From Anaerolineae bacterium (lineage in GTDB: Bacteria > Chloroflexota > Anaerolineae > B4-G1 > SLSP01), in NCBI GenBank assembly GCA_016934645.1, contig JAFGSL010000503.1, positions 1 through 53,891 on the forward strand: a DNA stretch of 53,891 nucleotides, given 5' to 3'. The position numbers were made by a program, and so were the translations under genes. The notes below the pieces were generated by a model. That model made no database searches, was not told the DNA's origin, and saw nothing but the letters and a program-made list of their open reading frames with translations. This document shows, one piece after another, positions 641 through 52,054 of the stretch. How positions within the stretch are numbered: the first letter of the stretch is position 1; each line of letters starts with the position of its first letter.

Positions 641-1096
641 TTATTGCTGCGACGGTATCGATAATCTCCACACAATGAGCGGACGATGTTTGCCTGGCTC
701 TTCCTTCCAACGCTCAAACCCTAAATGGGTATAAAAGGTGTTGGCTGGGAGTTCAGCGGGGCATTTTAGGATCAGTGTTTGCTTACCTAAAGCCTGAATC
801 TCAGCTACCAAAGTTTGAACTAAAGCTTTTCCAATCCCTATCAGCCGATACTCCGCTGCGACGACGATATCGTAGAGTGTTGTCTGTTCATCGCGACGGT
901 GGCGATAGTGGACAAAACCGGCAAGATGCCGGCTGTTCTGTGCGACGATGATTTCTTTCCGGTGGATGGCTTCTAGTAAAGCCGGGCGACGCACAAATCC
1001 TAATTCACGGCGATGAGCATCGGCCATAATTTTAATATTATCCAAGTCTTCTTCAGTGGCTTTGCGAAGGGTAATTTCAGCGTTTCCAGAGATCAA
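641..1096 (-). CDS. GNAT family N-acetyltransferase
   Basis: The protein shows the GNAT fold pattern: an N-terminal ITLRKATEEDLD strand-helix, a central LYDIVVAAEYRLIGIGKALV segment matching the acetyl-CoA binding motif A (R/Q-x-x-G-x-G/A), and a C-terminal FYTHLGFERW motif B. It would transfer an acetyl group from acetyl-CoA to an amine; the substrate is unknown. I prefer a TTG start at 1096 because AAGAGG lies 6 nt before it; the longer ATG start at 1135 has no visible ribosome binding site and would overlap the HerA-like gene by 59 bases instead of 20. It is the last gene of the minus-strand island. Acetyltransferases are common passengers, so membership of the defence system is uncertain. 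Confidence 0.75.
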   Translation of the reverse strand: MISGNAEITLRKATEEDLDNIKIMADAHRRELGFVRRPALLEAIHRKEIIVAQNSRHLAGFVHYRHRRDEQTTLYDIVVAAEYRLIGIGKALVQTLVAEIQALGKQTLILKCPAELPANTFYTHLGFERWKEEPGKHRPLIVWRLSIPSQQ

Positions 1097-2285
1097 AGGT
1101 ATCCTCTTCTTGTGTAGGTAAAGTACTTCCGCCATGCTGGCTGCGACGAGGGCGAATGCGTAACATATTCACGGTCTCACGTTCATCGTCTACCAAAACG
1201 GCTTCACCAGTGCGCTTGAGCGCCTTGATGAAGGTGCGTAGTTCTCCACCCATATAATCTTGACTGAGACCATTCAACGCGGACATATCCGCTCGGGTGG
1301 TGAGTTTGTGACTGAGTATGATGTCACATTGCGACAACACGTCCGGGTCAATTGCCGAGGGTTGTTGGCTGGCAACGACCAGCGATAGTCCTGGCTGGCG
1401 ACCTTCCTTGGCCCAGCGGATGAGTTGGTCCTTTGATAACGTCGCCCCACCGTTAGGCACAAATTGATGGGCTTCATCCAGCAACATCCAGACGCGCGGC
1501 AAAGGCGTCGCCAGGCCAAATTCTTCGCGGAGGCGCGCGTCGGAGCGTGCGCGAAACAGGTTGCGTGCGATGATGGAAATCACCAAGTTACGGCGACCCC
1601 GATTGCCGGGGTCCAAACGGCTCAAATCCAGCACGTTAACCATTCCTGGCGCAAAGAGTTCTTGTAACGGTTGGTAACCGCTCGTGGCAAATAACTCCCA
1701 ACTTTGCGCTGCCTCTAACCGGTTGAGCAACGCCTCTTTGGAAGCATCGGGCGCTTTGCCATCGCGTTCGATCATCCTGATAATGTCGGGAATGGTGAAA
1801 CATTCTTCTTTGTTTTGCAGCCGTTGCACGGCGCGGAATAGGACAATCCCCAATGGCTTGTTGATGTCGGCGTTGAATAGATCGCACCAACCGTCAGGCG
1901 ACAAATCTGAGGGATTCAAACGCAGAGGGATGACATTGACGCTACGTTGCTTGAACATTTGGAGTACATCGGTGTCATAAAGCGCAGTGGGGTTGCCAGG
2001 AATGAGCAGTCGCACGTCATAGCCTTTGGGCGCGAGACCCCACTTGAACAAGTCATCTTGCTGGGGTGTATTGGATTGTGTCATCGTGTGATAGACGCCC
2101 ATCGGGTCAACGATGATGGGAATGATTTCATTGCCGCCCGTAGCCAGCAATTCCTCCACCAATACGCCCAAGGTGTAGGATTTGCCGCTACCGCGTTTGC
2201 CACAGACCAAAACAGCGCGTGAACCTTCTGCGTTGAGATAGACCGGTTCATCGGATTGGGTGTCTTTGCCCAAGAACATTTTCAT
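1077..2285 (-). CDS. HerA/FtsK-like ATP-binding protein (DUF87 type)
   Basis: A 402-aa P-loop ATPase. Walker A GKRGSGKS is at residues 29-36, IIVDPMGVYH follows a strand typical of HerA/VirB4-like proteins, and a Walker B strand with LLDEAHQFVP lies in the second half, followed by a sensor-like LSHKLTTRADMSAL. HerA-family ATPases form hexameric DNA translocases and recur in defence systems with nucleases or with PglZ-like proteins. I chose the ATG at 2285 because GGAGGTGA lies just upstream and the ATG overlaps the stop of the PglZ-like gene as ATGA, which indicates translational coupling. An upstream ATG at 2327 would give 14 extra unconserved-looking residues. Its probable role is DNA translocation for the system; no nuclease domain is visible in it. 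Confidence 0.8.
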   Translation of the reverse strand: MKMFLGKDTQSDEPVYLNAEGSRAVLVCGKRGSGKSYTLGVLVEELLATGGNEIIPIIVDPMGVYHTMTQSNTPQQDDLFKWGLAPKGYDVRLLIPGNPTALYDTDVLQMFKQRSVNVIPLRLNPSDLSPDGWCDLFNADINKPLGIVLFRAVQRLQNKEECFTIPDIIRMIERDGKAPDASKEALLNRLEAAQSWELFATSGYQPLQELFAPGMVNVLDLSRLDPGNRGRRNLVISIIARNLFRARSDARLREEFGLATPLPRVWMLLDEAHQFVPNGGATLSKDQLIRWAKEGRQPGLSLVVASQQPSAIDPDVLSQCDIILSHKLTTRADMSALNGLSQDYMGGELRTFIKALKRTGEAVLVDDERETVNMLRIRPRRSQHGGSTLPTQEEDTFDLWKR

Positions 2286-3406
2286 ACATTCACCTCCACG
2301 CGCACAAAGGGAACCAAGCTTTCCCAATAAGAAAGCCCACCATGAACGCCGCTGTCGTTGGCGTGGATGGTCGCGCCGAGATATGGGTAGCGATACAGGG
2401 TGTACATTTGTCCCGTCAGAGACAATTCCACGCCATAGTCCGACAGCGCGCCGCCCCCGCGTTGATAGCGTGGATGGGCGGAGTGCAATTCCTCAACCAG
2501 CCGTAAATCGGGATGCTGTGCCTTCCACAAAATACCATGGTCGGCAGTAAGATATACTACTCCCGGAAGTTCCGTGGCAGCGACCACTTCTATCAAACGA
2601 CGGTAATTATCATGGATAGCCTCCACCGCCGCTTCAATCTCACGCGGCGTGACCTCTCGGCGGCTGTGCGCTAGACCGTCCAGTCCTTCACGTACCAGTT
2701 GCACATACGTGCCCTCTAAAGATTGCTGCTCCAATGTTTCCAGGGCGGTAGTGATTCCCGCTACACGGGTCAAGGGAACGCCTTCAAAAAGATACGCGGA
2801 GACTTCGTTGCGTTCTCGTCGCCAATAGGAAAATCCGGTGGAATGGGGAACGCCCACATCCACCAACCGCCGTGCTAACGTCGGCGCGCCTACAATGCCG
2901 GGAAATCCCACTGTGGGCACAATCTCATCCTGGTCGGTGAGGTTGTATGTGATCGATGGGCCATCAATCAAACATGGCTCCGGCGCTTCGGGCCAATGGC
3001 GGGCGTCCTCATAACTCAGACCATCTACCAACAGAAGTGCCACCACACAGTAGCCCCGCTGGATGGTATCGCTGACGATACGCTCTGCCACACGCTGATG
3101 GGTAAGCAGCAGGCGGCGCGCGTCCGCCAGACGGCGCGGGAGCATCTCATTCGCAGCCTCGGGCGTATAGGTCAACGACTCATTCAGTACTTGAAACCGA
3201 TGCCGATAGCGTGTGTCTATGCACGGGATGAGTATCGGCCGCTCAGAATGAGGCTCCAAAATATCCAGCCGCTCCACCAGGGTTTCGGCGTCGGACGCAA
3301 TATCTATTTCCGGCGGCAGGCACAAAAGCGCTAGCGGGGATATCTCGGTCATCACCGGCCCACGTTGTAATGCCTGAAGTAACCGCATGAATCCTGTTTC
3401 AGTCAT
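2282..3406 (-). CDS. PglZ-like alkaline-phosphatase-superfamily protein
   Basis: A 374-aa protein with the PglZ signature. LLLVDGLSYEDAR (about 125-136) carries the first metal-binding Asp, YLTADHG (about 285-291) the Asp-His pair, and VHGGLSYWESLVPF (about 354-367) the terminal His motif that is highly typical of PglZ. PglZ is the one protein common to all BREX and Pgl systems and also occurs in other defence sets; its biochemical role is still poorly settled. At 374 residues it is far shorter than full BREX PglZ proteins (roughly 800 aa), so it seems to be a near-minimal core domain. It overlaps the upstream ATPase gene by 8 bases and the downstream HerA-like gene by 4, so the three are almost certainly one operon. 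Confidence 0.8.
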   Translation of the reverse strand: MTETGFMRLLQALQRGPVMTEISPLALLCLPPEIDIASDAETLVERLDILEPHSERPILIPCIDTRYRHRFQVLNESLTYTPEAANEMLPRRLADARRLLLTHQRVAERIVSDTIQRGYCVVALLLVDGLSYEDARHWPEAPEPCLIDGPSITYNLTDQDEIVPTVGFPGIVGAPTLARRLVDVGVPHSTGFSYWRRERNEVSAYLFEGVPLTRVAGITTALETLEQQSLEGTYVQLVREGLDGLAHSRREVTPREIEAAVEAIHDNYRRLIEVVAATELPGVVYLTADHGILWKAQHPDLRLVEELHSAHPRYQRGGGALSDYGVELSLTGQMYTLYRYPYLGATIHANDSGVHGGLSYWESLVPFVRVEVNV

Positions 3407-6400
3407 AGCGTATCGGTTCTATCGTAATGCGCACGCGGCGCTTGGCGTGCAGGCCGCGCAGCGCCGTCCAAAATTCATCTTCCGCCAAACGGCGCTGCTG
3501 TTGCCACAACGCGTTAATTTCAACGGTGCTGCTTTCCGCGCCTAAGGTTTGCAGAACGACTTCTTCCGGGCCGGTCAATTGTAATTCGCGCAATTTTCGG
3601 CTCAATGTCTCTACACCACGGTGCGTTTGAGGAAAGTGGTCGCTGGCCTGTCCCAGGATTTGCAGCAGTTTATGGAATTTACCTTCACCTTCAATCGGAA
3701 AATCGGTCAATGTGGGGCGTTCGACCAGTTGCACACGGGCGCTATTCAAGCTATTGCTCAGGCCGCCGAGTTCTTGCTGTAATCTGCGGCCCTCTTGCGC
3801 GACGGCCTCACGTTCCTCCGGTGCTAGAGCCTGTATATAAGGTGACGCCAGCGTGGCACGCACTGCTTCCAGGTCTTGGGCAACGGCCTGCACTAACCGC
3901 TCGCACATATCCAATAGCGTATCGCGCACAGCATCGTAGAGTCGTTCGTAGCTATTCTCAGGTGCCCAAGGGTTATATTGCTCTGGACGCCACAGACGGT
4001 CGGCAGGAACCCTGAGACCTTGAATGAGCGCTTGTTGATACCGTTCCTGAAGTTGTGTGAACCGCTGCACGGCGGTTTCCCGCACTTGGCGCACCGTGGC
4101 GGCAATCTCACCCAAACGCAATCCATAGGTAGGTGCATGGGGCAGGGCTTGTTCCTTATCGGCGCTGATGTGCCCGTTGATGTCTTGGGAAAGACGTTGG
4201 AATTGTTCGTGCGGTTCGCGCACCAGGTCGCCCAATTGTTGAATCTCTTCTTGCAGCGCAGAACCGCGCTCTACCAGATCAACCCAAGCGGCAAACTCAT
4301 CATACTTTGCACTCAACACCTCACGGCGTGACTTGAGGCCGTCTAATTGTTGTTCGCGCGCTTTCAGGTCTTGCGCCAGGCGCGCTAAAAGTGTTAATCC
4401 CAGGTCCTCTGCCTTGAGCTCGGCTTGCTGCGCCTCAACGTCACGCCGAACTTTCTGCGCTTCGTTTTCCAAAGCCGTATACTGGCGCAAAACTCGCGTG
4501 CGCAGGTCATTGATTTGGAACACATAATCCACCCCGCCCTGCACTTGCGCGTTCAAACGTTCTCCCTGGCGTCGTTCCGGTGCGGGGATGCGGCTTACCA
4601 GCCGGGTCACTTGTTGTCGGAGCGCCGTTTGTTGTTCCCCGGCAAAGGTCTGGAGTTGCCGATGATAGGCTTGCGCAGAACGGCGCAGCCGGATGAGTTT
4701 TTCATCATCGGGTTTGCTTTTGAGTTGTTCATCTACTACCCGCCGTGCTTTTACTGCTTCGTCACACCACTGCTTGAGTAGCGTAGATTCAGGAAAGCCG
4801 CGCAACAGGATATCTATGTCCACCTGCCAGGCCTGAATTTCTGCCGCCAGTTCATCCACCGAAGGTGCTTGTGAGACCGTTTCACGCCAGATGCCGCGCC
4901 GGGGATCGTTTTCCAGCAAGCCTCGGTCGGTCATCAAATCCAAAACGACATCAATCTCTTTTTCCCGATAGCCTAACTGCGCAGCGCGGTGATAGATTTC
5001 GTTCGCTGGCAGCAGGTGAACCTCGTAACTGCGTCCGGCGGCTTGAATACGCTCGCTGGTCGGCGAAGCCAGGAGCCAAGCACGGATTTTTTGCTCCAGG
5101 GGATGTAGTTTGAAACGCACTGCGCCTTTGATGCCTTTTTCGGCGTCACGTCGCGAAGGAAAATCTTGAGTGATCTTGATCAAGGACGGAAAGTTGCTGA
5201 TAAAGGTGTCTAACCCGGTGTTGGAAAGAGTGAATAAGGTCGCCATATCTTCTTTGAGTCCTTCGTAGGCAATCTGTCCCTGGCGCTCGTGCGCTGTTTC
5301 CAGATGTTTTATGGCATTAACGTATTTGGTCAACGAACTTTCCCAGTTGCTGACAAGCATCAGCGTGTCATAGTCAGGATATAGCGCATCCAGTAGCTGT
5401 AGCAAGGCCACTTCCAAGAGTCGTTCTTGGGCAGCTTCTACCGGTGATCCAACAGCGGCATTGAATAGACCGCGAAAGACATTGTCGAGCAAATCCGTTT
5501 GAAAATACTGCACTTGGGGATCATCGGGCTTGGGAATAAGATTGGCGGCGCGCTTGGCATCCATCGTTTCGTGCATCGTCAAGAGCAAAAGCGGTGTCAA
5601 TTTGTAGGGAGAAACAATGGGTGCGACCAGGCGTTCTAGCGTCGGTGAAATACCGCCATCTTCGCGCGCCATCAAATTTAACGTCAGATTGATTTTCCGG
5701 GCATCATAGTCTATCTGAAGTGATTCAGCATGACGGCGACGCTCCTCTTCGGGGAGATCCAGATAGCGGCACAAGCGCATCTGCACAACGACATCACCCA
5801 ACGGGTTGGCATCACGCACAGAATCATCTTCCCACATTATCCGTACGTGGACGCGGCGTTTGGGGAATTTGCGGGCAAAGCCGTTAAAGTGACCTTCCAG
5901 AACCACACCCAGGTTGCGCGTCAAACCGTCAGGAATGGTTTCCACAACCGCCCATTGATTGTCGGGAAAGACGCGTCGGGTTAGTAATTGCAGGAATGCT
6001 TTAAGGGCGCGTAATTTGGTTGGATCTGAGGTTTCATAATAAGAACGCCAAAACTCGCGGATGGTCATGGTGAGCCAATCCGACTCTACCTGGACCTGAT
6101 CCAATCCACGCAAGGTAAAGCCGGGATTGCGTACATCTCCCACTGAGATAATCAGGTCACCTTGTGCACTTTGGGAAAGATCATCAAACGCTAGTTGAAG
6201 GTTGAAGCGTTCCTGTGCTTTACGAGTAAGCCCCTCGTTAGGAAATGCCGCTGCCCACTTGATCGCGCGTTCGCGCTCCGGCTGGCCCCGCACCAGACTG
6301 TGCGCCAACGCTTGTGAAACAATCTGTGGGATTTTCTTGGGGCTGTCGTACTGAATCTGTCCGCTCATAAAGTCATCAATGAGATGACCGGGGTTGTAGG

Positions 6401-7454
6401 CCGCATCGGCTGGGTAGCCCGTCTCGATATAACGCCGGGTAGCGCGGCGGAAGACGTTGACGACGGTGCGCGGGCCATCCGCCAGATCCTGCCGCGACGA
6501 AATTTGTCCCAGTGCGTCCAGACATTCTGGACTGAGGATGCGCGCCTGATGGTCTTCAAAATCAAAGGATTTCGCCAAGCGTTGCCACAAACGCGCTGGA
6601 AACTGATTGTCGTAAACCGTGCTCAAATCCAGACTCACCTGAAGAACGCGATGTATCAGGTCACCACGGATATCACGCATCAGGCTGATTTCTTTGGGCG
6701 GAATGACCATGATCAGCCCAAAGTTCAGGTGGTTGCGCCGAGTGAGTATCGCGCCGACCACATCAAACAGCGGACTGATCGGATCTTTGATGCCGGATTT
6801 AATTTCCGGTTCGATGTACTGTTGAACTTCATCGGCCAGGAGCAACAAGCCTTCAAAACCAGCCCGTTGCGCCAGGTGCGTCATATCTTCAAAAAAGCGA
6901 ATGTAATCTGCCGGACCGAGTTCGAGGATTTCCGGTTTGTCTTGGGCCATCCGCCGCGCGGCAGCCACATCAATGTGATACCGGTGTGCCAAGGTTTCAG
7001 CATTGCGTTCCATCACTGCCTGGTAGATAGCTTGCGCTTCACTGACCAGATTGGGGCGCGTACGGCCGATTTCGTAACGCGCCCAACCAAAGCAGCCCAC
7101 GAGTAAATCAGTGAGACGGTTGAGTTGGAAGGGCGGTGTGACCAAAATGTTGGCGTCACGGGCGCGTTCCCAAAGGTACAACGCCGTGCTGGTCTTGCCG
7201 TAACCATACTCGGCGGTGAGATAGCCGCGCATCGCACCACCCTGCCGGACTTCTTGAATAACTTGTCGTTCAAAACTGGCTACGTTCTGGCCACTTTGAC
7301 CGTTTTCGGCTTGCCGCCCCAGCGGCACATAGGTGCGCACGTGGCGTCTGTAGGCTTCGTCCACAGCTTCGGGACGTTCAAATAGATCAGTGGCGCGCTG
7401 TGTGGCAACAATTTCTTCTTTATCGAGGATGGCTTGTAGACCTTCTAAACTCAT
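3399..7454 (-). CDS. Giant BrxC/PglY-like P-loop ATPase with coiled coil
   Basis: A 1351-aa protein. Walker A is AEYGYGKTST at 81-90, resembling the E-(Y/F)-G-x-GKT loop of BrxC/PglY, and Walker B is LLLLADEVQQ at 203-212. The middle is an alpha/beta region, and roughly residues 880-1130 are rich in Glu, Gln, Arg and Leu with a heptad look, suggesting a long coiled coil. BrxC and PglY are 1200-1300-aa ATPases of BREX and Pgl systems, so length and order of motifs agree. It lies between VapC (45-bp gap) and the PglZ-like gene (8-bp overlap), and a BrxC-type ATPase in the same operon as PglZ is the core BREX arrangement. It probably assembles on DNA or with the sigma/TGT components. The exact family would need a profile search. 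Confidence 0.75.
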   Translation of the reverse strand: MSLEGLQAILDKEEIVATQRATDLFERPEAVDEAYRRHVRTYVPLGRQAENGQSGQNVASFERQVIQEVRQGGAMRGYLTAEYGYGKTSTALYLWERARDANILVTPPFQLNRLTDLLVGCFGWARYEIGRTRPNLVSEAQAIYQAVMERNAETLAHRYHIDVAAARRMAQDKPEILELGPADYIRFFEDMTHLAQRAGFEGLLLLADEVQQYIEPEIKSGIKDPISPLFDVVGAILTRRNHLNFGLIMVIPPKEISLMRDIRGDLIHRVLQVSLDLSTVYDNQFPARLWQRLAKSFDFEDHQARILSPECLDALGQISSRQDLADGPRTVVNVFRRATRRYIETGYPADAAYNPGHLIDDFMSGQIQYDSPKKIPQIVSQALAHSLVRGQPERERAIKWAAAFPNEGLTRKAQERFNLQLAFDDLSQSAQGDLIISVGDVRNPGFTLRGLDQVQVESDWLTMTIREFWRSYYETSDPTKLRALKAFLQLLTRRVFPDNQWAVVETIPDGLTRNLGVVLEGHFNGFARKFPKRRVHVRIMWEDDSVRDANPLGDVVVQMRLCRYLDLPEEERRRHAESLQIDYDARKINLTLNLMAREDGGISPTLERLVAPIVSPYKLTPLLLLTMHETMDAKRAANLIPKPDDPQVQYFQTDLLDNVFRGLFNAAVGSPVEAAQERLLEVALLQLLDALYPDYDTLMLVSNWESSLTKYVNAIKHLETAHERQGQIAYEGLKEDMATLFTLSNTGLDTFISNFPSLIKITQDFPSRRDAEKGIKGAVRFKLHPLEQKIRAWLLASPTSERIQAAGRSYEVHLLPANEIYHRAAQLGYREKEIDVVLDLMTDRGLLENDPRRGIWRETVSQAPSVDELAAEIQAWQVDIDILLRGFPESTLLKQWCDEAVKARRVVDEQLKSKPDDEKLIRLRRSAQAYHRQLQTFAGEQQTALRQQVTRLVSRIPAPERRQGERLNAQVQGGVDYVFQINDLRTRVLRQYTALENEAQKVRRDVEAQQAELKAEDLGLTLLARLAQDLKAREQQLDGLKSRREVLSAKYDEFAAWVDLVERGSALQEEIQQLGDLVREPHEQFQRLSQDINGHISADKEQALPHAPTYGLRLGEIAATVRQVRETAVQRFTQLQERYQQALIQGLRVPADRLWRPEQYNPWAPENSYERLYDAVRDTLLDMCERLVQAVAQDLEAVRATLASPYIQALAPEEREAVAQEGRRLQQELGGLSNSLNSARVQLVERPTLTDFPIEGEGKFHKLLQILGQASDHFPQTHRGVETLSRKLRELQLTGPEEVVLQTLGAESSTVEINALWQQQRRLAEDEFWTALRGLHAKRRVRITIEPIRYD

Positions 7455-7499
7455 CGTGTGCTCCCGTTTTTCATCATAAAAGCTACCGTCGGATGCTGA

Positions 7500-7946
7500 T
7501 CACAGTAACGCCTCCAAAACCAAAACTTCGACCTCGGTGATTCGGCTCAAACCTTTGTCATTGGTTAAAAATGCCTGACAGTCGTTCAGCAAAGCCGCAG
7601 CGACTTGCAATGCATCCGGTGTGCGCAAATGGTACCGAGCGCGTAACTCGGCGGCGCGTTCGGCAATCTCACTTCCTATGCTCACCAACGTAAAATGCGC
7701 TGCGGAGGTTAACAACTTTCTGTAGGTTTGGCAGAGGTCGTGTTGTCCTTTCTCCATTGGCAACGCCAAAACTTCAGTCAATGTCAAGGTTGAAGTGATT
7801 CCTTCAATTTGCCCTTCTGCAATGCGCTGGAAGATCGTTGTCACCAGTGCATCGTAACGCGGATGCGCCTCCACAAAATAGATAATCGGGCTGCTATCCA
7901 GAGCCAGCCGCGAAATCGAGGCGAAAGCCGTTTCCAGCGCGGTCAT
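7500..7946 (-). CDS. VapC-like PIN-domain toxin
   Basis: A 148-aa PIN-domain protein. LALDSSPIIYFVE gives the first catalytic Asp, TSTLTLTEVLALP the conserved Thr/Glu, and RTPDALQVAAALL plus FLTNDKGL the C-terminal acidic residues of the Mg-dependent RNase site. VapC toxins cleave RNA, often tRNA, and are neutralised by the upstream VapB. The ATG at 7946 overlaps the stop of the upstream small gene as ATGA, the usual toxin-antitoxin coupling. A longer frame starting at 8009 would run through the antitoxin and is rejected. Its location inside an otherwise continuous defence operon is unusual. Confidence 0.85.
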   Translation of the reverse strand: MTALETAFASISRLALDSSPIIYFVEAHPRYDALVTTIFQRIAEGQIEGITSTLTLTEVLALPMEKGQHDLCQTYRKLLTSAAHFTLVSIGSEIAERAAELRARYHLRTPDALQVAAALLNDCQAFLTNDKGLSRITEVEVLVLEALL

Positions 7947-8188
7947 TCTGCACGCTCCCATTCTTGCCGTAGTTCTGAAACATAGGTTTGCGCGTCTATG
8001 CCTTGCCATATTTCTTTGCCGAGTCCATGTAAGGTCATAATGCTGACCGATGGCTCAACGTTTTGCGCTTCGCGTGCCAATTGACGGCTCATCAAGGCAA
8101 TAAGCTCTAATTTCTCGGCAGTCGAGAGTCGTTGGATATGGCGTTGATACAAAGAGTTGAGAGTTCTTTGGTACTGTTGTACAGTCAT
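7943..8188 (-). CDS. VapB-like antitoxin (small protein upstream of VapC)
   Basis: An 81-aa protein with a helical look (MTVQQYQRTL..., LSTAEKLELIALMSRQL) and an acidic, Trp-containing tail ending QEWERAE. No DNA-binding fold is certain from sequence alone. Its identification as antitoxin rests on its size, its 4-bp overlap with the PIN toxin gene, and its own strong ribosome binding site AAGGAGG ending 8 nt before the ATG at 8188. Antitoxins of this kind bind the toxin with the C-terminal tail. The 50-bp gap before it and the 45-bp gap after vapC contrast with the overlaps elsewhere in the operon. Confidence 0.65.
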   Translation of the reverse strand: MTVQQYQRTLNSLYQRHIQRLSTAEKLELIALMSRQLAREAQNVEPSVSIMTLHGLGKEIWQGIDAQTYVSELRQEWERAE

Positions 8189-8238
8189 CTTTTTTCCCTC
8201 CTTAAAAAGCATTGGATAAGACGGGCGCAACGGTGATG

Positions 8239-8742
8239 CTATAGTACTTGCATCACTACTACCCACAGATTGGCATCATAGGCAGGGTTGAGTGCGTAAT
8301 AATCCAGCAAACTCAGGTTACGGTAGATCGTATCCACATCCTGAGGTGTAGGAACGGGCAAGCCAACTGCCGGTAATCCCAACCGGCCAGGCTGCGCCGT
8401 AATCATCAATGCTGTACGCGCCTTGTTGAGTTGAAGTGCAGCCAGCAGTCGCCGTAATGCAACGACATCATCGGGTGCATTATCGATAACCACACGCGCT
8501 TGATCGCGCACCGAAGCTATATGGTAAACGCGCGCGGAAGGATAATAAACTGCGTTCAACGCGCGCGCCACGCTCCACGCCAGGAAGGTTTTGCCGGCAC
8601 CGGGCGGCCCATAGAGATTAATTCGCTCTGGAAAGCGCCACAACCGTTCAATTTCACTCAGGGTCGCGGCTTGACTTTCGGTCAGCCAGTCGTGGCGCGC
8701 TTCAGCCTTGAGGCGGTTCAATAACACCAGTAGACGGCTCAT
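8239..8742 (-). CDS. Small AAA/P-loop ATPase, BrxF-like
   Basis: A 167-aa protein that is little more than a nucleotide-binding domain: LYGPPGAGKTFLAW gives Walker A at 45-52, and TALMITAQPGR lies near the expected sensor/Walker B strand, though a classic DE Walker B is not clear. Small stand-alone ATPases (BrxF in type 3 BREX, BrxD in type 2 and 6) are known partners of BrxC/PglY. BrxF is about this size, so a BrxF-like role as regulator of the giant ATPase is a reasonable inference. The ATG at 8742, 10 nt after the stop of the upstream gene, gives the natural N-terminus; a longer frame to 9126 lies entirely in antiphase to the upstream gene and is spurious. No good ribosome binding site spacing is seen (GGAAAG abuts the ATG). 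Confidence 0.7.
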   Translation of the reverse strand: MSRLLVLLNRLKAEARHDWLTESQAATLSEIERLWRFPERINLYGPPGAGKTFLAWSVARALNAVYYPSARVYHIASVRDQARVVIDNAPDDVVALRRLLAALQLNKARTALMITAQPGRLGLPAVGLPVPTPQDVDTIYRNLSLLDYYALNPAYDANLWVVVMQVL

Positions 8743-8752
8743 CTTTCCACGC

Positions 8753-9571
8753 TCACCGTAACAAATCTTGCAATTCCGGCCATTTGAGAAAGCGGATAAA
8801 CCGCCCATAGACACCCGCACCGGTGCCGGGGCGAACAACAGCGGGATAGAGCGGCAGCGTCCAATCCAGCACGCGATCCAACGCGGCGGGGTCCAACAAG
8901 CAAACACGGCACACAGCCTCGCGCCGTTCCAGAGTGAGCAAGAAATCAATGCCCACTTCACCGCCCAGCGTTTGTCCCACCCAACCCAGCGCCAACAGCG
9001 CCAGTTCCGGCGGACAAAAGTACCGCCGGGTGAAAATATCGTTTTCGATGACGGGAGGAGTGAGGGCTTCCAACCATTTACGGACGCCGCGTATGCTCTT
9101 GGGGCTGAACGATGGATCGCTTTCAAAAGTCTCTTGAATCTGATTTCGGATTTCTTCGGCTATGACATTAGAAATCTTGCTTATATCTGCTCCGGGTTGT
9201 CGCCAAAGAAGATCAACGACTTGACGGTAACTCCACAGAACAGTTTTATCGAGAGGCCTTTCAGCTTGCCAACCAGAGTAAATGATATAATGAACAACAT
9301 CCGGTCTTGTCTCCGGCTTCAACTGGAGCATCCATAACGCTGCTTCAGACAAACCAATGCCCTTTACTTGATCCTTTTGTAATAACCCGCAATCGCTGGC
9401 GAAACTATTAATCTCAGCGCGCGACATCAGCCCGTGCTGTTGAGCAAAATCCAAAAGAGAAGCAACAGTATCGAATTCTGCTTGCTCGGCGTTGACTGCT
9501 TCGAGTAGTGGAATTAGAGTGCTAGGTTCGGCCTCTTGCGGGACGTGAAAAGTCAGATGCCGTTCAGCCAT
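8753..9571 (-). CDS. Unrecognised 272-aa protein of the defence island
   Basis: I do not recognise this family. The protein starts HLTFHVPQEAEPS, has a mostly helical first half with a short HTH-like stretch (FDTVASLLDFAQQHGLMSRAE), a Trp/Tyr-rich centre (HYIIYSGW, VLWSYRQVVDLLW), and a second half with CRVCLLDPAALDRVLDW. There is no signal peptide or membrane segment. It overlaps the TGT-like gene by 19 bases at its start and is followed after 10 bases by the small ATPase, so it is co-expressed with them. Its position suggests an adaptor or regulator between the modification enzyme and the ATPases, but that is only inference. Confidence 0.7.
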   Translation of the reverse strand: MAERHLTFHVPQEAEPSTLIPLLEAVNAEQAEFDTVASLLDFAQQHGLMSRAEINSFASDCGLLQKDQVKGIGLSEAALWMLQLKPETRPDVVHYIIYSGWQAERPLDKTVLWSYRQVVDLLWRQPGADISKISNVIAEEIRNQIQETFESDPSFSPKSIRGVRKWLEALTPPVIENDIFTRRYFCPPELALLALGWVGQTLGGEVGIDFLLTLERREAVCRVCLLDPAALDRVLDWTLPLYPAVVRPGTGAGVYGRFIRFLKWPELQDLLR

Positions 9572-10620
9572 TTTTGGTACTCCTCTCTATAACGTGGTGA
9601 TCCATTCCTGTAAATTCTTTCAATAGTATCACCAGCATCACTGTTAATCATATTTACAGATTGCTGAATGGCAATCAAATTATGCAAGGCGCGATGCATT
9701 TTATGGGCTTGTAGTTCATCAATGGAAGCGCAAAAAGGACAAGAGTGTCCGGTAAGTATTTTCAGCGTTTCAAATTCTTTAAATTGAATACCCTGTTGTA
9801 ATTCTGAGCCGCCATTACGATGTGAAATATTGTAGCCGCGTGTAAACGGCAAGTACACCTGTCCAAACCCGGCAGATTTTATCCATGCCGAAGAATCAAA
9901 AGAATCCGCTCCTGCTCCATAAATCATAGCAATCAAAGCCGGGGCTCCCAGACCAAAAAAATGTACCTTAACGCTATTTTTGTGCGCTATATCTACGACA
10001 TATCTAGCAAGATCCACTGCGCTATTTGTTGCAATATTGATTCCATTATTTTTCCCTATGGTACCGAAACTGCCAAACCCTATACGCTGAACCCCTAACT
10101 GCAAATAAGTCTTTAGACAAAGGTCAACTTGTTCATACGTGTGACCTTGTACTACTGCCAAAGCCCGACTTTGCAGATGATGAGGCATTTCTTGGTAGAA
10201 TAGTGCCGTGTAGTCTGCCGTATCTCTGATTTTTTGCCAAACGACTTGTTCACTATCTTGAGATGTGGGAACGTGATCAGGCAATGTATAAATATCAGCC
10301 CACGGATTTGCTTTGTAAAACTCTAGCAACGGATAATAGAGTTCCTGATAGGTTAGTTTCCCTACTTGAACGTAGTAACCACCGCTGTCGAACATAACAG
10401 TTGAACCATTATGCTCTTTTAAGTTTCGAACTAATTTCAATGACTCAGGCGACGCGAACAAGGGTGTGATAAGAATATGACGTAGCGGATTCATATCAAT
10501 CCGGTGCATATCAAGTAAACGGCGGATTTTACGAATATCACTTGGGCAAAGAGTCAGTGCAGTGAAAAAGTTTAACATTGGCAATTTCTTTTCGATCAAT
10601 AATACCAATCCGTTGATCAC
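9553..10620 (-). CDS. tRNA-guanine-transglycosylase-like protein, DpdA-like (putative DNA 7-deazaguanine inserter)
   Basis: A 355-aa TGT-superfamily protein. FDSGGYY (77-83) matches the DSGGFQ active-site motif, ADSFDSSAW (238-246) matches the G-x-D-x-FD nucleophile motif, and CPFC (294-297) followed by His residues at 306, 309 and 313 looks like the zinc site. TGTs swap guanine for queuine or preQ1 in tRNA; DpdA paralogues insert 7-deazaguanines into DNA. It is less like housekeeping Tgt than expected and sits in a defence operon, so a DpdA-like role is favoured. Its GTG start at 10620 overlaps the sigma gene stop as GTGA; an ATG at 10578 is an alternative. No preQ0 synthesis genes are present in the window. 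Confidence 0.7.
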   Translation of the reverse strand: MINGLVLLIEKKLPMLNFFTALTLCPSDIRKIRRLLDMHRIDMNPLRHILITPLFASPESLKLVRNLKEHNGSTVMFDSGGYYVQVGKLTYQELYYPLLEFYKANPWADIYTLPDHVPTSQDSEQVVWQKIRDTADYTALFYQEMPHHLQSRALAVVQGHTYEQVDLCLKTYLQLGVQRIGFGSFGTIGKNNGINIATNSAVDLARYVVDIAHKNSVKVHFFGLGAPALIAMIYGAGADSFDSSAWIKSAGFGQVYLPFTRGYNISHRNGGSELQQGIQFKEFETLKILTGHSCPFCASIDELQAHKMHRALHNLIAIQQSVNMINSDAGDTIERIYRNGSPRYREEYQKWLNGI

Positions 10621-13016
10621 TCAAATGAAAACTCGACGAAATCCCATTCATCTTCTGTCAGTGATTCGTCGACGGCGACGTCAATGTTCTCCGGTTGCCG
10701 CGCCCAACGAGTGGCGAGTGTGTCCCCTAGAGGTGTCAACTGATACCTCCCGCCATAGGATGACTTTTGCGCAGCGCCGATGCCGGCGAGCAAATTCAAC
10801 CGGTTAGTGACATCATCCAATTCCAATGGATGTGTCACCACAAATAATTGCACTAATTCGGTCACGCGGAGCGGTTGGTGGCGTTGCAAGAACCACCAAA
10901 ATTCAGGCATCGCCTGCAAGCGGCGTGAGAGCGTATCCAGGCAATACCCTCGCAATGTTGATAAGTCGGTAGTCGGCAAGGAGAGCGATAGAACCTGCTC
11001 GGTACCCTCGGTATAAAAAACATAGGGAATAGCTCCTACCAAATAATACGCCGAAAGCGCGCCTTGACAAACCCATCGCGGTTGCGGCCATGGCAGGCGA
11101 GACCACTCAGTCAATGTCCGTAAAAAGGTCATTATACCGCATGGTTTTTGCAGTATTTCACGAACAATCATCACGGACTCAAAAAATGCATTGGGCTGGT
11201 CGGGAGGATCAGGGAAAGGGGTGGGACAAAAGGGCAACACCGGTTCTGCTTCTGTGGTGCGCTGACATTCCCATTCTGCCAAGCTAAAAAAACCTTCGCC
11301 CAGGCGCACAAAAACGTCCTCATATTTCATCAACACCGCGTAGACGTAACTTTCGTCCATCTGCGATTCACCGGCAAGATCATTGACTTGCTCTGCAATG
11401 GCATTGTAATGAGCGGGTGTTTCCAAGACGCGCATTGCTGCTAAGACCTGGTCCTGACGTGTGCTGCCGCCTGGAACGCGGTAGGTATGCCAATCTCCAC
11501 CGGGTAACTGTGATAAGTAGTAATCAATTTGCTGGTATAAAGTCATTTCTGTGTCTTTGTTGCCTTGCTCAAAACTAAAATGTTCGTCCAAATAAGCGCC
11601 GATTGGCGACGGCAAAGGGCCAAAACATGCCGATTGCGCCGCAAAATCTACCGCGAATCCTTTTGCTCGCAAAATCTGCTTTAGTTTTGGCAATGTGCGC
11701 TTTTCGATCTGGCGGATACGTTCGCGTGTAAGGTCAAATTGCTGCCCTACTTCTTCTAGTGTACGTTCTTGCCCATCGTCAAGGCCGTAACGCAAACGCA
11801 TAACTTCGACATCGCGCGTATTTATCCTGAGACGTAGCACGTCGGGATCGCGTGCGCTTATCCTGCTGGCAGCATCGAACACTATTTGAACATTCTGCTG
11901 CCATTCTGATTGTTCATAACTTGTCCCAATGGCTCCTTCGGTTTCATAATCAGTAACACAATCAGCCAGGCTTACACCAACTTCATCCGTAATCCCTACT
12001 TGTTCACACAATGAAATGGGTAGCTCTAGATCAATAGGAATCAACGGTTGGCAATATTCAATCATGCGATAAGTCTTACGGCGCGCCTTAGCAGATGCCG
12101 AAGGTTTTTGGGCCGTTGATGATGGGGCTCCATCTTCTTCATCCTCTTCTATGTCGGCAGCGTCATTTATTGCACAAGAAGCCAAGACATCCTCTATTGT
12201 TTCTTTTTCTAGTTGCTTTTGCAGTGAACACACACGTTCGTGCATATGCACCGGTAACCGAATAGTGCGTCCATGGTCGGCTATTGCACGGCTGATGCCT
12301 TGCCAAATCCAACTGGAAGCAAACACTGCAAAGCGCGCTCCTTGGCGGTAGTCAAAACGCTCCGCGGCGCGCATCAATCCCAATACCCCATCTTGAACCA
12401 GATCCAGATAATCTACTCCTTGTCCTATATGATTGCGTGCAATCCGCAAAACATAGCGTAAATACCCATTGACCAGTGTGGCGTGGGCTTGATCGGCACG
12501 TTCTTCTACTGCCTGCCATATCTCCCCAAGCTGATAATACCTGATCCGATCAGTAAATTGTGGTATAGGTGGCAGTCTTTTCCTGCCTTCTGGAATATCT
12601 ACCAGATACTCAAGCATAGGCTCTGGCAATAGACATAATGACTCAGCAATATCATACGCTTCGTTGGTCAGCTCTGAACCAATGTTCTCAGGGAACATTG
12701 AGGTAGATTTGACAAATTGATGCAAGCTCGAACGTTGTAACCCATAAATGTTGCGGTAAGCTTCTAGAGCTTCGGCAATCCAGATTTCAAGTTTAGGGGT
12801 GACTATATCTGCTTTTCTGGCACATATAGCTTTAAGTTTGGAAAATCGTTTTCTTAAGTCGGCATAGATCACCGGTAGAGTGGCATCATTCGCTACACCA
12901 AGTGCTTCCCAAGTTTGAGGGGCCTTGATCTGAATACCTAACCAGAGTTCTTGCGAAAAGTTGGTCAGGATGGGTATCTGCGCGATATCCGAGAACAATA
13001 GACCGAGCGTATCCAT
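10617..13016 (-). CDS. Large sigma70-like protein with C-terminal winged-helix extensions
   Basis: A 799-aa protein. Residues about 182-265 are a complete group-1-like sigma2 domain (LDLVQDGVLGLMRAAERFDY, then SSWIWQGISRAIAD and TIRLPVHMHE), and 400-452 are sigma4 (VMRLRYGLDDG, TLEEVGQQFDLTRERIRQIE). Between them is an acidic linker. About 520-590 resembles a HARE-HTH-type winged helix (HYNAIAEQVNDL), and the C-terminus has another winged-helix-like stretch. Housekeeping sigma factors end soon after sigma4, so about 350 extra residues are exceptional. It heads the operon with a probable promoter just upstream and overlaps the TGT-like gene by 4 bases. It may direct transcription of the system or have been repurposed to sense foreign DNA or transcription. 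Confidence 0.8.
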   Translation of the reverse strand: MDTLGLLFSDIAQIPILTNFSQELWLGIQIKAPQTWEALGVANDATLPVIYADLRKRFSKLKAICARKADIVTPKLEIWIAEALEAYRNIYGLQRSSLHQFVKSTSMFPENIGSELTNEAYDIAESLCLLPEPMLEYLVDIPEGRKRLPPIPQFTDRIRYYQLGEIWQAVEERADQAHATLVNGYLRYVLRIARNHIGQGVDYLDLVQDGVLGLMRAAERFDYRQGARFAVFASSWIWQGISRAIADHGRTIRLPVHMHERVCSLQKQLEKETIEDVLASCAINDAADIEEDEEDGAPSSTAQKPSASAKARRKTYRMIEYCQPLIPIDLELPISLCEQVGITDEVGVSLADCVTDYETEGAIGTSYEQSEWQQNVQIVFDAASRISARDPDVLRLRINTRDVEVMRLRYGLDDGQERTLEEVGQQFDLTRERIRQIEKRTLPKLKQILRAKGFAVDFAAQSACFGPLPSPIGAYLDEHFSFEQGNKDTEMTLYQQIDYYLSQLPGGDWHTYRVPGGSTRQDQVLAAMRVLETPAHYNAIAEQVNDLAGESQMDESYVYAVLMKYEDVFVRLGEGFFSLAEWECQRTTEAEPVLPFCPTPFPDPPDQPNAFFESVMIVREILQKPCGIMTFLRTLTEWSRLPWPQPRWVCQGALSAYYLVGAIPYVFYTEGTEQVLSLSLPTTDLSTLRGYCLDTLSRRLQAMPEFWWFLQRHQPLRVTELVQLFVVTHPLELDDVTNRLNLLAGIGAAQKSSYGGRYQLTPLGDTLATRWARQPENIDVAVDESLTEDEWDFVEFSFE

Positions 13017-13659: not shown

Positions 13660-14423
13660 TGCGCCAATGCCCGGCGGCAGATCTCCAACTGGAACGGTTT
13701 GTCGGCGTCCATGCCCATTTCGGCATCATCCACGGGCAACGCGCGCACGTTCAGGCTGAACTTTTCGAGTGCAAGCCGTTCCACCTCCGCCAGGCTCAAG
13801 CGATGCGCCAACAGTTTGATGAAAAAGACAGGGCCGAGACGCGCCGCCTGTTTAAGCGCGTTTTTGCGGCTGTCGAGCAGATCGTCCCACAAACCCCGGT
13901 GCTTGTGGCCGATGTGCGGCGCGACAACGTGAATATCCCCGGCGGCGAAGTCCCCATCGCTAAAGTGAACGTAACTGCGCCGCGAACCGGGGAAACGCCG
14001 CTCCATCTTCTCACGCGACACGATAGTGTGATAGATATCCACTGCCGGATCCGCACACTGCGCGAGGAGACGTTCCACCATCGCGCCGGTCAGCATCGGA
14101 ATATCGGAACTGCTGATCAAGACCTGTCGCGTCTGCGGATTGCGCTCCAACACCCAATCGATGCCGCCGAGGATGTTCTTCAGCATCGAGCCTTGATCGG
14201 GTAAATCGTAAGCGATTTTAGGAGATGCCAGGGCCGCTGCATCCACTGGCCCCACTACCACGATATCACGCACGCTCGGCGCCTCGTCGAGCGCGTCCAG
14301 CACCCATTGGACCATCGGCTTGCCGCCCACATCGAGCAGCGCCTTCGGTTGTCCCTGGGTGTATGCGTAAAGCAAATCTTCTTCTTGCGGCACGCCGCCA
14401 GCCATCAGGATACAGTCAATCAC
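13656..14423 (-). CDS. MobA-like NTP transferase family protein
   Basis: A 255-aa protein with the nucleotidyltransferase start ILMAGGVPQEED, then QPKALLDVGGKPMVQWVLDAL, which carries the PKAL-(D/V) substrate-binding pattern of sugar or cofactor nucleotidyltransferases, and SSSDIPML with the metal-binding Asp. The Gly-rich loop lacks the usual GxGxRL, so it is a divergent member. The reaction would be transfer of a nucleotide to a phosphorylated or alcohol substrate, not identifiable here. Overlaps of 8 bases with abiEii upstream and 4 bases with the PAP2 gene downstream place it in one operon with an AbiE pair, an odd combination. Confidence 0.75.
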   Translation of the reverse strand: MIDCILMAGGVPQEEDLLYAYTQGQPKALLDVGGKPMVQWVLDALDEAPSVRDIVVVGPVDAAALASPKIAYDLPDQGSMLKNILGGIDWVLERNPQTRQVLISSSDIPMLTGAMVERLLAQCADPAVDIYHTIVSREKMERRFPGSRRSYVHFSDGDFAAGDIHVVAPHIGHKHRGLWDDLLDSRKNALKQAARLGPVFFIKLLAHRLSLAEVERLALEKFSLNVRALPVDDAEMGMDADKPFQLEICRRALAQ

Positions 14424-15231
14424 GAGAATCTCCTAACATCTTCAAGATATTCTCTCGCGTCAACAACGCGAGATCGGTTTCCTTTTCCACAAAAGGCCGC
14501 ACATCGGCCAAAACGTGTTCCCACGCGAGTTGTACCAATCGATCCCTGAGCATCGCTCGCCAGGTGTCCGGCGTCGGTGTGCGACCGGTCCAGCCCGTTT
14601 GTTCAAGGGCATTGTTGAGCAAAATCAGGTTTGGCTCTGGCCAGTCAGGATCGCTGAGATACCAAAAAAGATCGTCAAGGTCCCGGCCCTTGACATACGG
14701 ACGTTGCAAGAGAGCGTGAATTTTGCCGGCCAATAACGAGGGGCGATCATGGTGTTGAAGATGCAGCGGAACGTAGCGCCGCAAGATCGTGGTAACTAAT
14801 CCGGCCCCCTGCGGCGGATTGGTATCCACTTCAAGCTTGACCGCCAAGACTTGATCTGTGTGTGGCGACAATGCCAATTCGTAAAGCAAACCCACAAAGC
14901 GAATGAAAGCACTGTGAACAGTTTTCTGATCGCTGACCTTGATCTGAACAGTATAACCTTCGGCCATAAACTCGGCCTGAATGGCCTTGAGATAAGCGCG
15001 AAAGTCATACAACGATGGGGAGTGCTCCAAAGCAAAGTCCAGATCCTCGGAGTAGCGAGGGATGGCATACAAGAAGCGGAGCGCCGTTCCTCCGTGAAAC
15101 GCCAGCGGCACCATCGCGCCGGATCGCTGCAATGTTCCCAAAATCCTGGCCTGCAAGTATTCACGCACCTGATTCTGTGCTTGCATGAGCGACGGAGCAT
15201 TTCGAACCAGATCGGTAAGCAGAGATTTCAT
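14416..15231 (-). CDS. AbiEii/AbiGii family nucleotidyltransferase toxin
   Basis: A 271-aa protein with the type IV toxin motif FHGGTALRFLYAIPRYSEDLDF: the GG(S/T)-x9-D-x-D nucleotidyltransferase pattern, followed by a conserved AGKIHALLQR-PYVKGRDLDDLFW region. AbiEii toxins are GTP-dependent nucleotidyltransferases that act on tRNA or other targets and give abortive infection or stability of mobile elements. It overlaps the antitoxin gene by 4 bases (ATGA at 15228-15231). Length matches the family. Confidence 0.88.
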   Translation of the reverse strand: MKSLLTDLVRNAPSLMQAQNQVREYLQARILGTLQRSGAMVPLAFHGGTALRFLYAIPRYSEDLDFALEHSPSLYDFRAYLKAIQAEFMAEGYTVQIKVSDQKTVHSAFIRFVGLLYELALSPHTDQVLAVKLEVDTNPPQGAGLVTTILRRYVPLHLQHHDRPSLLAGKIHALLQRPYVKGRDLDDLFWYLSDPDWPEPNLILLNNALEQTGWTGRTPTPDTWRAMLRDRLVQLAWEHVLADVRPFVEKETDLALLTRENILKMLGDSRD

Positions 15232-15869
15232 AACGTCTCGTATGCCTCGCTTTCAGCGTGTGCAAGTTCGGTGATATGTCGCGCCGCTCTGAGCAATTTA
15301 GGGCTTTGTCCGCGCATCGCCTGCCGGTGCAAAACGTCTGTATCCACTTGTGCGAGGTTCTGCAAGCGCAATTCACGGAGATATTCCGGCGCATCGCCGC
15401 CCGGTTGCAAATACACCAGGTCTAGCAGCGCCTTTTCCGGCCCGGCGACCATCGCAGTTTGCCCTACAGCAACAGCTTCGGTCCGATACCCGTAAAACAG
15501 TTCCGGCTTGATGTGACGGTACTCAAAACGCCCAAGCGGCGTTGCCCAATATCCAGTACGCGACGTTGTCACGCTGGTTACGGCAGGAACGTACTCTGGA
15601 ATGAGGCCATAGTAAGCCAAGGCGGATTGGCAACTGACGTAGGTCCCATGTGCAAGATGATTGGCGAGCACAAACGGGTGAGGGTTGGAACGTTGATAGG
15701 GCGGTGCCAACACGTATACACCACGCCGCAACTGATGCAGTTTCCCCGCCTTCGTCCACAACGAGAGTTGTTTACGCACCAAGTCAGGATCAACGTTCCC
15801 GGCAAGCAGAAGCCCCGTATCAAATACAGGTTCAGAACCAACAATGTGTAACAATTCTTCAAACTTCAT
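15228..15869 (-). CDS. AbiEi-type antitoxin and transcriptional autoregulator
   Basis: A 213-aa protein with an N-terminal winged helix (LVRKQLSLWTKAGKLHQLRRGVY) and the typical AbiEi middle region LANHLAHGTYVSCQSALAYYGL and a later GPEKALLDLVYLQ. AbiEi antitoxins counteract AbiEii without direct complex and repress their own operon by binding inverted repeats in the promoter. The sequence just upstream contains such a repeat (15876-15897). It starts the operon that also contains abiEii, the nucleotidyltransferase and PAP2 genes. Confidence 0.88.
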   Translation of the reverse strand: MKFEELLHIVGSEPVFDTGLLLAGNVDPDLVRKQLSLWTKAGKLHQLRRGVYVLAPPYQRSNPHPFVLANHLAHGTYVSCQSALAYYGLIPEYVPAVTSVTTSRTGYWATPLGRFEYRHIKPELFYGYRTEAVAVGQTAMVAGPEKALLDLVYLQPGGDAPEYLRELRLQNLAQVDTDVLHRQAMRGQSPKLLRAARHITELAHAESEAYETL

Positions 15870-50823: not shown

Positions 50824-50828
50824 TACTG

Positions 50829-52041: not shown

Positions 52042-52054
52042 AGGAGAATTGACC

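Follow-up and report, generated by a model that had tools for sequence, protein, structure and literature searches.

A probable BRC-type operon in an Anaerolineae bacterium combines a TGT-family transglycosylase with BREX-like genes, a sigma-like protein, and a candidate self-marking cassette

Gene content of the operon

We analyzed a 53,891-nucleotide stretch of an Anaerolineae bacterium genome (contig JAFGSL010000503.1; hereafter the window), whose minus strand carries, at 641-13016, an operon of eight genes together with an inserted PIN toxin-antitoxin pair. In order of transcription, the operon encodes a sigma-like protein, a TGT-family transglycosylase, a 272-amino-acid protein that matches no known family (UNK), a small AAA-type NTPase, an antitoxin-like protein, a PIN-domain toxin, a BrxC-like ATPase, a PglZ-like protein, a HerA-like translocase, and a GNAT N-acetyltransferase, with intergenic distances of -59 to +45 bases. 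The gene train that a first-pass annotation had read from the sequence is confirmed, and its BREX-like core is supported. As detailed below, the operon is very likely an anti-invader system of the recently described BREX-Related Capture (BRC) type.

The sigma-like protein (10617..13016; 799 amino acids) combines sigma-70 region 2 (Pfam Sigma70_r2, 4.8e-16), sigma-70 region 4 (Sigma70_r4, 1.8e-13), and a HARE-HTH domain. The 341-amino-acid transglycosylase (9553..10578, its start set by homology within a first-pass frame reaching 10620) matches the Pfam TGT family (PF01702) at 2e-10 and 40.7 bits (cut-off 26.3) and bears the motifs FDSGGYYVQ, LPDHVPT, VVQG, SFDSS, and HxCxxC...H. UNK (8753..9571) is a winged-helix protein that fold comparison places with BrxA and SspB, and it is followed by a 167-amino-acid P-loop NTPase of the AAA+ type with a Walker A motif (8239..8742). 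Downstream lie the genes for the BrxC-like ATPase (3399..7454; 1351 amino acids) and the PglZ-like predicted nuclease (2282..3406; 374 amino acids). The last two genes encode a HerA/FtsK-type translocase (1077..2285; 402 amino acids; Pfam DUF87 1.9e-15, PADLOC HerA 9e-26 and mad8 1.7e-23) and the GNAT (641..1135; 164 amino acids; Acetyltransf_7 1.6e-11, 44.9 bits against a cut-off of 27). Pfam cut-offs were passed by the sigma-like, TGT, PIN, HerA (DUF87), and GNAT proteins; as single sequences, the PglZ-like (Pfam PglZ 0.035) and BrxC-like (BrxC_BrxD 0.013) proteins stayed below them.

Alignments with relatives bear on the two below-threshold assignments. In the BrxC-like family, GYGKT (84-88) and DE (208-209) were invariant across 16 rows, the BrxC_BrxD profile matched 4 of 16 members (best 0.0038), and one relative's gene is annotated as a "BREX system ATP-binding domain-containing protein." Against PDB, the full-length BrxC-like profile gave only coiled-coil and similar matches, and the N-terminal profile retrieved no BrxC. 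In the PglZ-like family, D128, D243, H247, D289, H290, and H355 were invariant in nine rows, and we take these residues to bind metal. The nine-member PglZ-like profile matched PglZ (9zn5) at 0.0094 and a response regulator (8ted, which we take to be PorX) at 0.0062 over the whole sequence, the best single 8ted stretch having an independent E of 0.71; Pfam recognized three of nine members below cut-off (best 0.0019), and PADLOC assigned PglZ to the window protein at 0.0023.

For UNK, VIA-align ranked SspB and BrxA high, supporting an SspB/BrxA fold, and Foldseek on its own returned no match at E 0.001. The small NTPase is headed in its structure match list by AAA+ folds; nSTAND3 matched 4 of 11 family members weakly (best 0.016), and no BrxF was found among its PADLOC matches. 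Two negative results speak against the BRC assignment: none of 19 UNK members scanned matched DUF4007 in Pfam, and none of 16 BrxC-like members matched DUF6079. In the BRC paper, DUF6079 was assigned by more sensitive methods, and the NTPase is called an active BrxB-like STAND NTPase (PMC12839542, accessible text).

Recurrence of the gene set in bacteria and haloarchaea

We compiled 37 relative loci, comprising 20 loci, 13 longer regions, and two viral records from TGT-guided searches and two plasmids from BrxC-guided searches, which with the window make 38. All were found via TGT (two via BrxC), so that the co-occurrence counts are conditional on that. By partner genes, they fall into PglZ-HerA loci (21), loci of Druantia II/IV type (7) and Druantia III type (3), one locus with HmaA, four truncated loci, one phage record, and one solitary locus (L019, from an Acidobacteria metagenome-assembled genome [MAG]). 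Sigma-like matches weaker than 1e-10 were dropped from the counts (L050, 3e-5), as were HmaA (L009, 4e-29; L055, 6e-14) and DruE3 (L007, 1e-8) matches weaker than 1e-100.

The PglZ-HerA class, defined by PglZ, comprises 12 bacterial and 9 haloarchaeal loci. TGT, UNK, the small AAA, and the BrxC-like ATPase were present in 21 of 21 (the window's AAA, for which the open reading frame list gives a longer frame, was entered by hand), HerA in 19, and GNAT in 18, with the misses at contig ends. The gene set, and mostly also its order, recurs in Chloroflexota, Bacillota, and haloarchaea, with 17-52% identity to the window's UNK, PglZ, AAA, and BrxC. The closest relatives also make Chloroflexota the probable home of the window's operon. 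Judged by sequence comparison, this recurrence of set and order is more than chance despite the low identity, and the search for co-occurring homologues put forward in the first-pass annotation thus found them together widely.

The system TGT is uncommon in the genomes sampled. With seeds included, it was found in 3 of 400 genomes from the phylum of G005 (two besides the seed), 8 of 391 Halobacteria genomes (the class of G012; seven besides the seed), and 9 of 396 genomes from the class of G017 (four newly seen). Plasmid searches with the window's BrxC, the BrxC of L017, and the TGT of L012 returned the same two plasmids each time. Searching viral contigs with BrxC gave 210 pattern matches and no confirmed one, and the window's TGT had no match at 1e-5 among phage records.

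Lineage and substrate of the transglycosylase

Phylogenetic analysis of TGT-family proteins (53 sequences, 331 columns, LG+F+R4, 1000 ultrafast bootstraps) included six DpdA-type sequences (five phage-borne, one on a Paenibacillus plasmid); the 5′-truncated TGT of L020 was left out, and Cap10 was not among the sequences. The system TGTs formed a clade (support 80) beside the DpdA-type enzymes (joint support 81), both supports being moderate, and stood apart from canonical Tgt and from a third TGT group. Together with arcTGT and an extra TGT of genome G009, the system and DpdA-type enzymes joined at support 99. All 32 relative genomes also encode, at a separate site, a protein that strongly matches canonical Tgt or arcTGT (E at most 1.8e-74, with contig ends truncating some). 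In the tree, the comparison with housekeeping Tgt suggested in the first-pass annotation yielded no clustering with it.

Profile searches complicate the assignment of DNA as the substrate. The TGT profile matched the tRNA-acting arcTGT in PDB (6.8e-4) better than DpdA (7ui4, 0.019), which speaks against a DpdA-like role, and arcTGT was also the best NCBIfam match (6.5e-8). These matches would fit an enzyme that modifies tRNA in an operon of regulatory or translational rather than restrictive function. The presence of a housekeeping Tgt or arcTGT in 32 of 32 relative genomes and the company of PglZ, HerA, Druantia-like, and Hma-like genes make such a role very improbable.

Cap10 of type IV CBASS carries out protein deazaguanylation, and the system TGT might likewise modify a protein of its own system rather than DNA. 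The profile touches Cap10 weakly (9ntn, E 0.58), and the ranking of the three PDB matches keeps a protein-modifying role a live rival. Both arcTGT and DpdA match better, the tree joins the system TGTs to phage-type DpdA (in the absence of Cap10), and a phage record described below has TGT and GNAT with no UNK or BrxC in the 21 kb covered; we consider protein modification unlikely. Marking of DNA with a 7-deazaguanine is the reading that we hold to be likely, with the TGT occupying the position of the marking enzyme, as the first-pass annotation had proposed. A further TGT-family gene directly follows a Vut_1-family gene in L069 (G009:C23:16600-18600), within a genome that also has the system.

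The candidate base and its modification

QueF converts preQ0 to preQ1 by reduction. A QueF gene was present in all nine haloarchaeal loci and stood directly before TGT in seven. Across Halobacteria (391 genomes sampled for TGT, 382 for QueF), QueF occurred in 11 of 382 genomes, comprising eight of eight with TGT and 3 of 374 others (Fisher 1.6e-14, kinship ignored). The three QueF genomes without TGT carry a second, diverged QueF type, and one of them, L076, appears viral by eye. This second type was also observed in haloarchaeal loci, at L049:12729-13133, L021:18974-19369, and L048:18736-19095.

The QueF of L012, the one sequence tested, was nearer NADPH-dependent QueF (4f8b, 1.2e-28) than QueF-Like (1.2e-5), and an alignment of 11 members retained the Cys-Pro and Pro-Asp positions in all, with the motif E-x-K-[SA]-L-[KR]. 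QueF and QueF-L are described as hard to distinguish by sequence (PMC6884629, accessible text). According to the same source, dPreQ1 occurs in the DNA of two viruses with a QueF(-L) homologue, Dp-1 and HVTV-1; in the latter it amounts to about 30% of G, and that virus encodes no DpdA.

Genes for precursor supply were linked to some loci. QueC/E/D adjoin L021 and L051, and a Vut_1-family gene (PF02592, presumably YhhQ) follows BrxC in L047. Another Vut_1-family gene lies about 12 kb from the system TGT on the contig of L014 (G013:C111).

Of the 38 loci, 29 have a GNAT along with the TGT; eight of the remaining nine are cut by contig ends, and the last is the solitary L019. The two genes form a single fusion in L022 and L026 and are neighbors in the phage record, which ties the GNAT to the TGT product. 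GNAT enzymes usually act on primary amines; preQ1 has such a group and preQ0 does not. Taken together, the QueF linkage, the amine of preQ1, and the GNAT-TGT association lead us to propose that TGT inserts preQ1 and that GNAT acylates it. We give the insertion of preQ1 even odds and regard the acylation of the inserted base as a tentative proposal of lower probability. The word "acetyl" is nowhere in the accessible text of PMC6884629.

Several observations run counter to preQ1. None of the 12 bacterial PglZ-HerA loci contained QueF, and one of seven Druantia II/IV-type loci did so as a weak match; the choice of preQ1 thus rests mainly on archaea. The haloarchaeal L021 and L048 hold only the diverged QueF type, at the other end of the locus. 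In addition, full-length QueC was found in only 13 of 32 genomes, and 5 of 32, in a set where several are MAGs, had neither QueC nor a strong Vut_1 match. A weak QueF-like open reading frame lies directly after BrxC in the bacterial, Druantia-partnered L046 (15328-15777; PF14489, 27.2 bits).

The lack of QueF in the 12 bacterial PglZ-HerA loci would suit a BRC system in which TGT inserts preQ0 and GNAT acts on a protein or another small molecule. The authors of the BRC paper incline to this view and suggest a base modification "perhaps restricted to dPreQ0 alone" (PMC12839542, accessible text). This alternative leaves aside the QueF genes of nine of nine haloarchaeal loci and the presence of TGT in eight of the 11 QueF-bearing Halobacteria genomes. 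It also has to accommodate a GNAT fused to TGT in two loci and adjacent to it in a phage, given a base without a primary amine. We therefore rate insertion of preQ0 as improbable relative to insertion of preQ1.

A cassette with Druantia-like, Hma-like, and phage partners

Eleven loci contain TGT and UNK, with BrxC and GNAT where the contig reaches, without AAA, PglZ, or HerA. Seven of these cassettes are partnered by Druantia II/IV-like genes, three by Druantia III-like genes, and one by HmaA. Among the seven, DruE matched at PADLOC E=0 in L017, L022, and L047, with weaker DruF and DruL; L014, L016, and L046 matched the DruE of L022 at E=0; and L026 has DruF- and DruL-like genes before the stretch ends. 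Among the Druantia III-like loci, L058 encodes DruE3 (3.5e-170, PADLOC), L006 a fragment similar to it, and L018 only a relative of the 1093-amino-acid protein that neighbors DruE3, a protein without a PADLOC match of its own. A protein of about 172 amino acids is encoded directly before TGT in these three loci (L058:8129-8644, L018:4631-5140, L006:6021-6542) and, among the searched loci, only there.

In L007, HmaA matched at PADLOC E=0. Hma has been described as helicase, methyltransferase, and ATPase (PMC12839542, accessible text); because of this composition, the TGT and BrxC of L007 may stand in place of the Hma methyltransferase and ATPase. No methyltransferase was recognized among the scanned proteins beside the cassette loci, which covered part of the flanking open reading frames.

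In a viral record of 73,752 bases, TGT (interrupted by the record ends) and GNAT are direct neighbors, and a gene for a tail tape-measure protein (PHROG 1.2e-39) lies about 2 kb farther on. The TGT pieces keep the FDSGG, LPD, SFDS, and HxCxxC motifs, and in the tree the larger piece falls with L058's system TGT (support 100). No UNK or BrxC was found in the part of the record covered, about 21 of 73.8 kb.

Some loci hold additional copies. We observed a second UNK and BrxC in L016 (15351-20136), a second, opposite-strand BrxC in L046 (15774-19820), and a second UNK in L008 (3834-4787), perhaps representing duplicated or stacked cassettes.

This exchange of partners suggests, at the level of gene content, that the marking part is a cassette common to other defense systems and a phage. 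A bolder version, which we advance as doubtful, is that GNAT-TGT-(BrxA/SspB-fold)-BrxC would be a transferable self-marking cassette replacing methyltransferases in BREX-, Druantia-, and Hma-like systems, that its mark would be N-acylated preQ1, a new DNA base, and that a tailed phage would wear the same mark by means of its TGT-GNAT pair.

The sigma-like protein

The sigma-like protein was present in 12 of 12 bacterial PglZ-HerA loci and 0 of 9 haloarchaeal ones, as would be predicted for a regulator linked to the bacterial RNA polymerase. (The search profile was built from 14 proteins, which match it by construction.) The best NCBIfam match of the window protein was MzaA, at 192.9 bits against a cut-off of 800. 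The first-pass annotation held that the protein runs or senses the system; along the same lines, we infer that it is probably a transcription regulator.

Its domain composition does not fit this role uniformly. Of 19 sigma-like proteins, 13 showed HARE-HTH, and no region 4 was found in the short forms encoded by Druantia III-type loci. These short forms, and the lack of sigma region 2 in 7 of 14 members, would also agree with a component of a DNA-scanning complex rather than a transcription regulator, particularly as HARE-HTH has been proposed to recognize modified bases and a sigma-related helix-turn-helix occurs in some DndH proteins (PMC10853773, accessible text). However, the protein is absent from nine of nine haloarchaeal loci with otherwise the same core, and is thus not needed for the core reaction there, and its alpha-CTD and sigma domains suggest a connection with bacterial RNA polymerase. 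A scanning role is accordingly the minor possibility here, and transcriptional regulation remains the role that we favor.

In L009, a PglZ-HerA locus, a 467-amino-acid open reading frame similar to HmaA (5921-7321, 4e-29) lies just upstream of the sigma-like gene.

Inserted and neighboring genes

The toxin-antitoxin pair consists of a PIN-domain toxin (7500..7946; 148 amino acids; Pfam PIN 8.6e-16) and an antitoxin-like protein with a GTG start (7943..8266; 107 amino acids), which overlaps the PIN gene by 4 bases and has no family match over cut-off. No homologue of either was found at E 1e-3 in L001-L020 (later loci were examined in part), and comparison among loci therefore makes the pair probably a local insertion between the AAA and BrxC genes. 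In L057, a different small insertion, of 214 amino acids, separates UNK from AAA.

Just upstream of the operon, two adjoining genes (14416-15869) resemble an AbiEii/AbiEi-type pair by eye; PDB searches gave no support. Far from the operon, a 398-amino-acid open reading frame (50805-52001) resembles an N4/N6 DNA methyltransferase by eye. A single open reading frame at 48001-49920, near a nadB-like gene (52049-53707), appears by eye to be a fusion of nicotinate-nucleotide pyrophosphorylase and quinolinate synthase.

Proposed mechanism

The arrangement suggests two cassettes. A marking cassette, consisting of the TGT, the BrxA/SspB-fold DNA binder, the BrxC-like ATPase, and the GNAT, would exchange guanine in the host's own DNA for a 7-deazaguanine. 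The inserted base would most likely be preQ1, and its free amine may be acylated by the GNAT afterwards. The restriction cassette, formed by the PglZ nuclease, the HerA translocase, and the small NTPase, would destroy unmarked DNA. In bacteria, the sigma-like protein, tied to RNA polymerase, would regulate expression and, in members with a HARE-HTH domain, might read the mark. Comparison of sequences and folds shows the gene identities, their co-occurrence, the BrxA/SspB fold, the linkage of QueF and QueC/E/D in relatives, and the exchange of cassette partners; DNA as substrate, preQ1 as base, acylation, restriction, and regulation are proposals built on these. We regard this whole, a BRC system with marking and restriction cassettes and a sigma regulator, as a fairly likely best explanation, a shade less so than 7-deazaguanine marking by itself.

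If true, base exchange with acylation would join methylation and phosphorothioation as marks distinguishing self from foreign DNA, with acylated preQ1 as a concrete candidate base. Retained in the bacterial loci and missing from the archaeal ones, the sigma-like protein would give a way to study how such a system can be turned on while its host survives.

Comparison with known systems

The closest described system is BRC, reported by Rakesh and Krishnan in January 2026 from 45 taxa, with PglZ, a BrxC-type ATPase (DUF6079), a STAND NTPase, a BrxA-like DUF4007 protein, a universal HerA/FtsK, GNAT, and TGT (PMC12839542, accessible text). The window has the counterpart of each: PglZ, BrxC-type ATPase, BrxA/DUF4007-like protein, NTPase, HerA/FtsK, GNAT, and TGT, the identity of the ATPase with DUF6079 and of the NTPase with an active STAND protein being tentative. 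Because the operon without its sigma gene matches this set, its core is not new, and the first-pass statement that no described system has these genes is superseded by a published set with seven of the eight components. In the open-licence literature, a transglycosylase together with BREX, GNAT, and HerA appeared only in that paper. The features new relative to BRC are the sigma-like protein, the QueF link, and the cassette swapping: in the accessible text, the paper names no sigma-like protein for BRC, its sigma passages concern other proteins, "Druantia" does not occur, and QueF and QueC/E/D are not in the BRC section.

Dpd systems share a TGT-family enzyme and, in some relative loci, linked 7-deazaguanine supply genes. 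However, the window's TGT reached 17 bits, where the DpdA cut-off is 200, and no Dpd family (DpdB, DpdC, restriction genes) was among the PADLOC matches of the window's 10 proteins. BREX types 1-3 differ in their PglX/BrxX methyltransferase, no methyltransferase family of any kind being among the matches listed for these proteins (for the sigma-like protein, the first 25 of 50 in NCBIfam). MZA is similar in having a large sigma-70-like protein, MzaA, in a defense operon; the window protein falls well short of the MzaA cut-off, and no other Mza family was among the matches. From MADS, only mad8 was matched, by the HerA protein (1.7e-23), with no other mad family in the window.

Druantia and Hma resemble the window through the same TGT cassette, whose partners they are in 11 relative loci. 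The window differs in lacking DruE and HmaA among the matches of its 10 proteins, and Hma as described has a methyltransferase (PMC12839542, accessible text). BRIGADE combines a predicted 7-deazaguanine cluster with helicases of the YprA family, to which its authors assign that of Druantia (PMC12458937, a 2025 preprint, accessible text), so that deazaguanine genes beside Druantia-family helicases have a partial precedent. It differs in being Dpd/ARMADA-like, with two YprA helicases, and confined to halophilic archaea, and TGT, GNAT, and BrxC are nowhere in the accessible text.

SspBCD and type 4 BREX likewise combine an SspB-fold protein and a BrxC/SspC-type ATPase with an interchangeable chemistry enzyme (PMC12839542, accessible text), which in the window is a TGT rather than a PAPS reductase. 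The comparison suggests a plug-in logic across BREX, SspBCD, Druantia, and Hma, in which an SspB/BrxA-fold protein and a BrxC-type ATPase would carry whichever chemistry enzyme is at hand.

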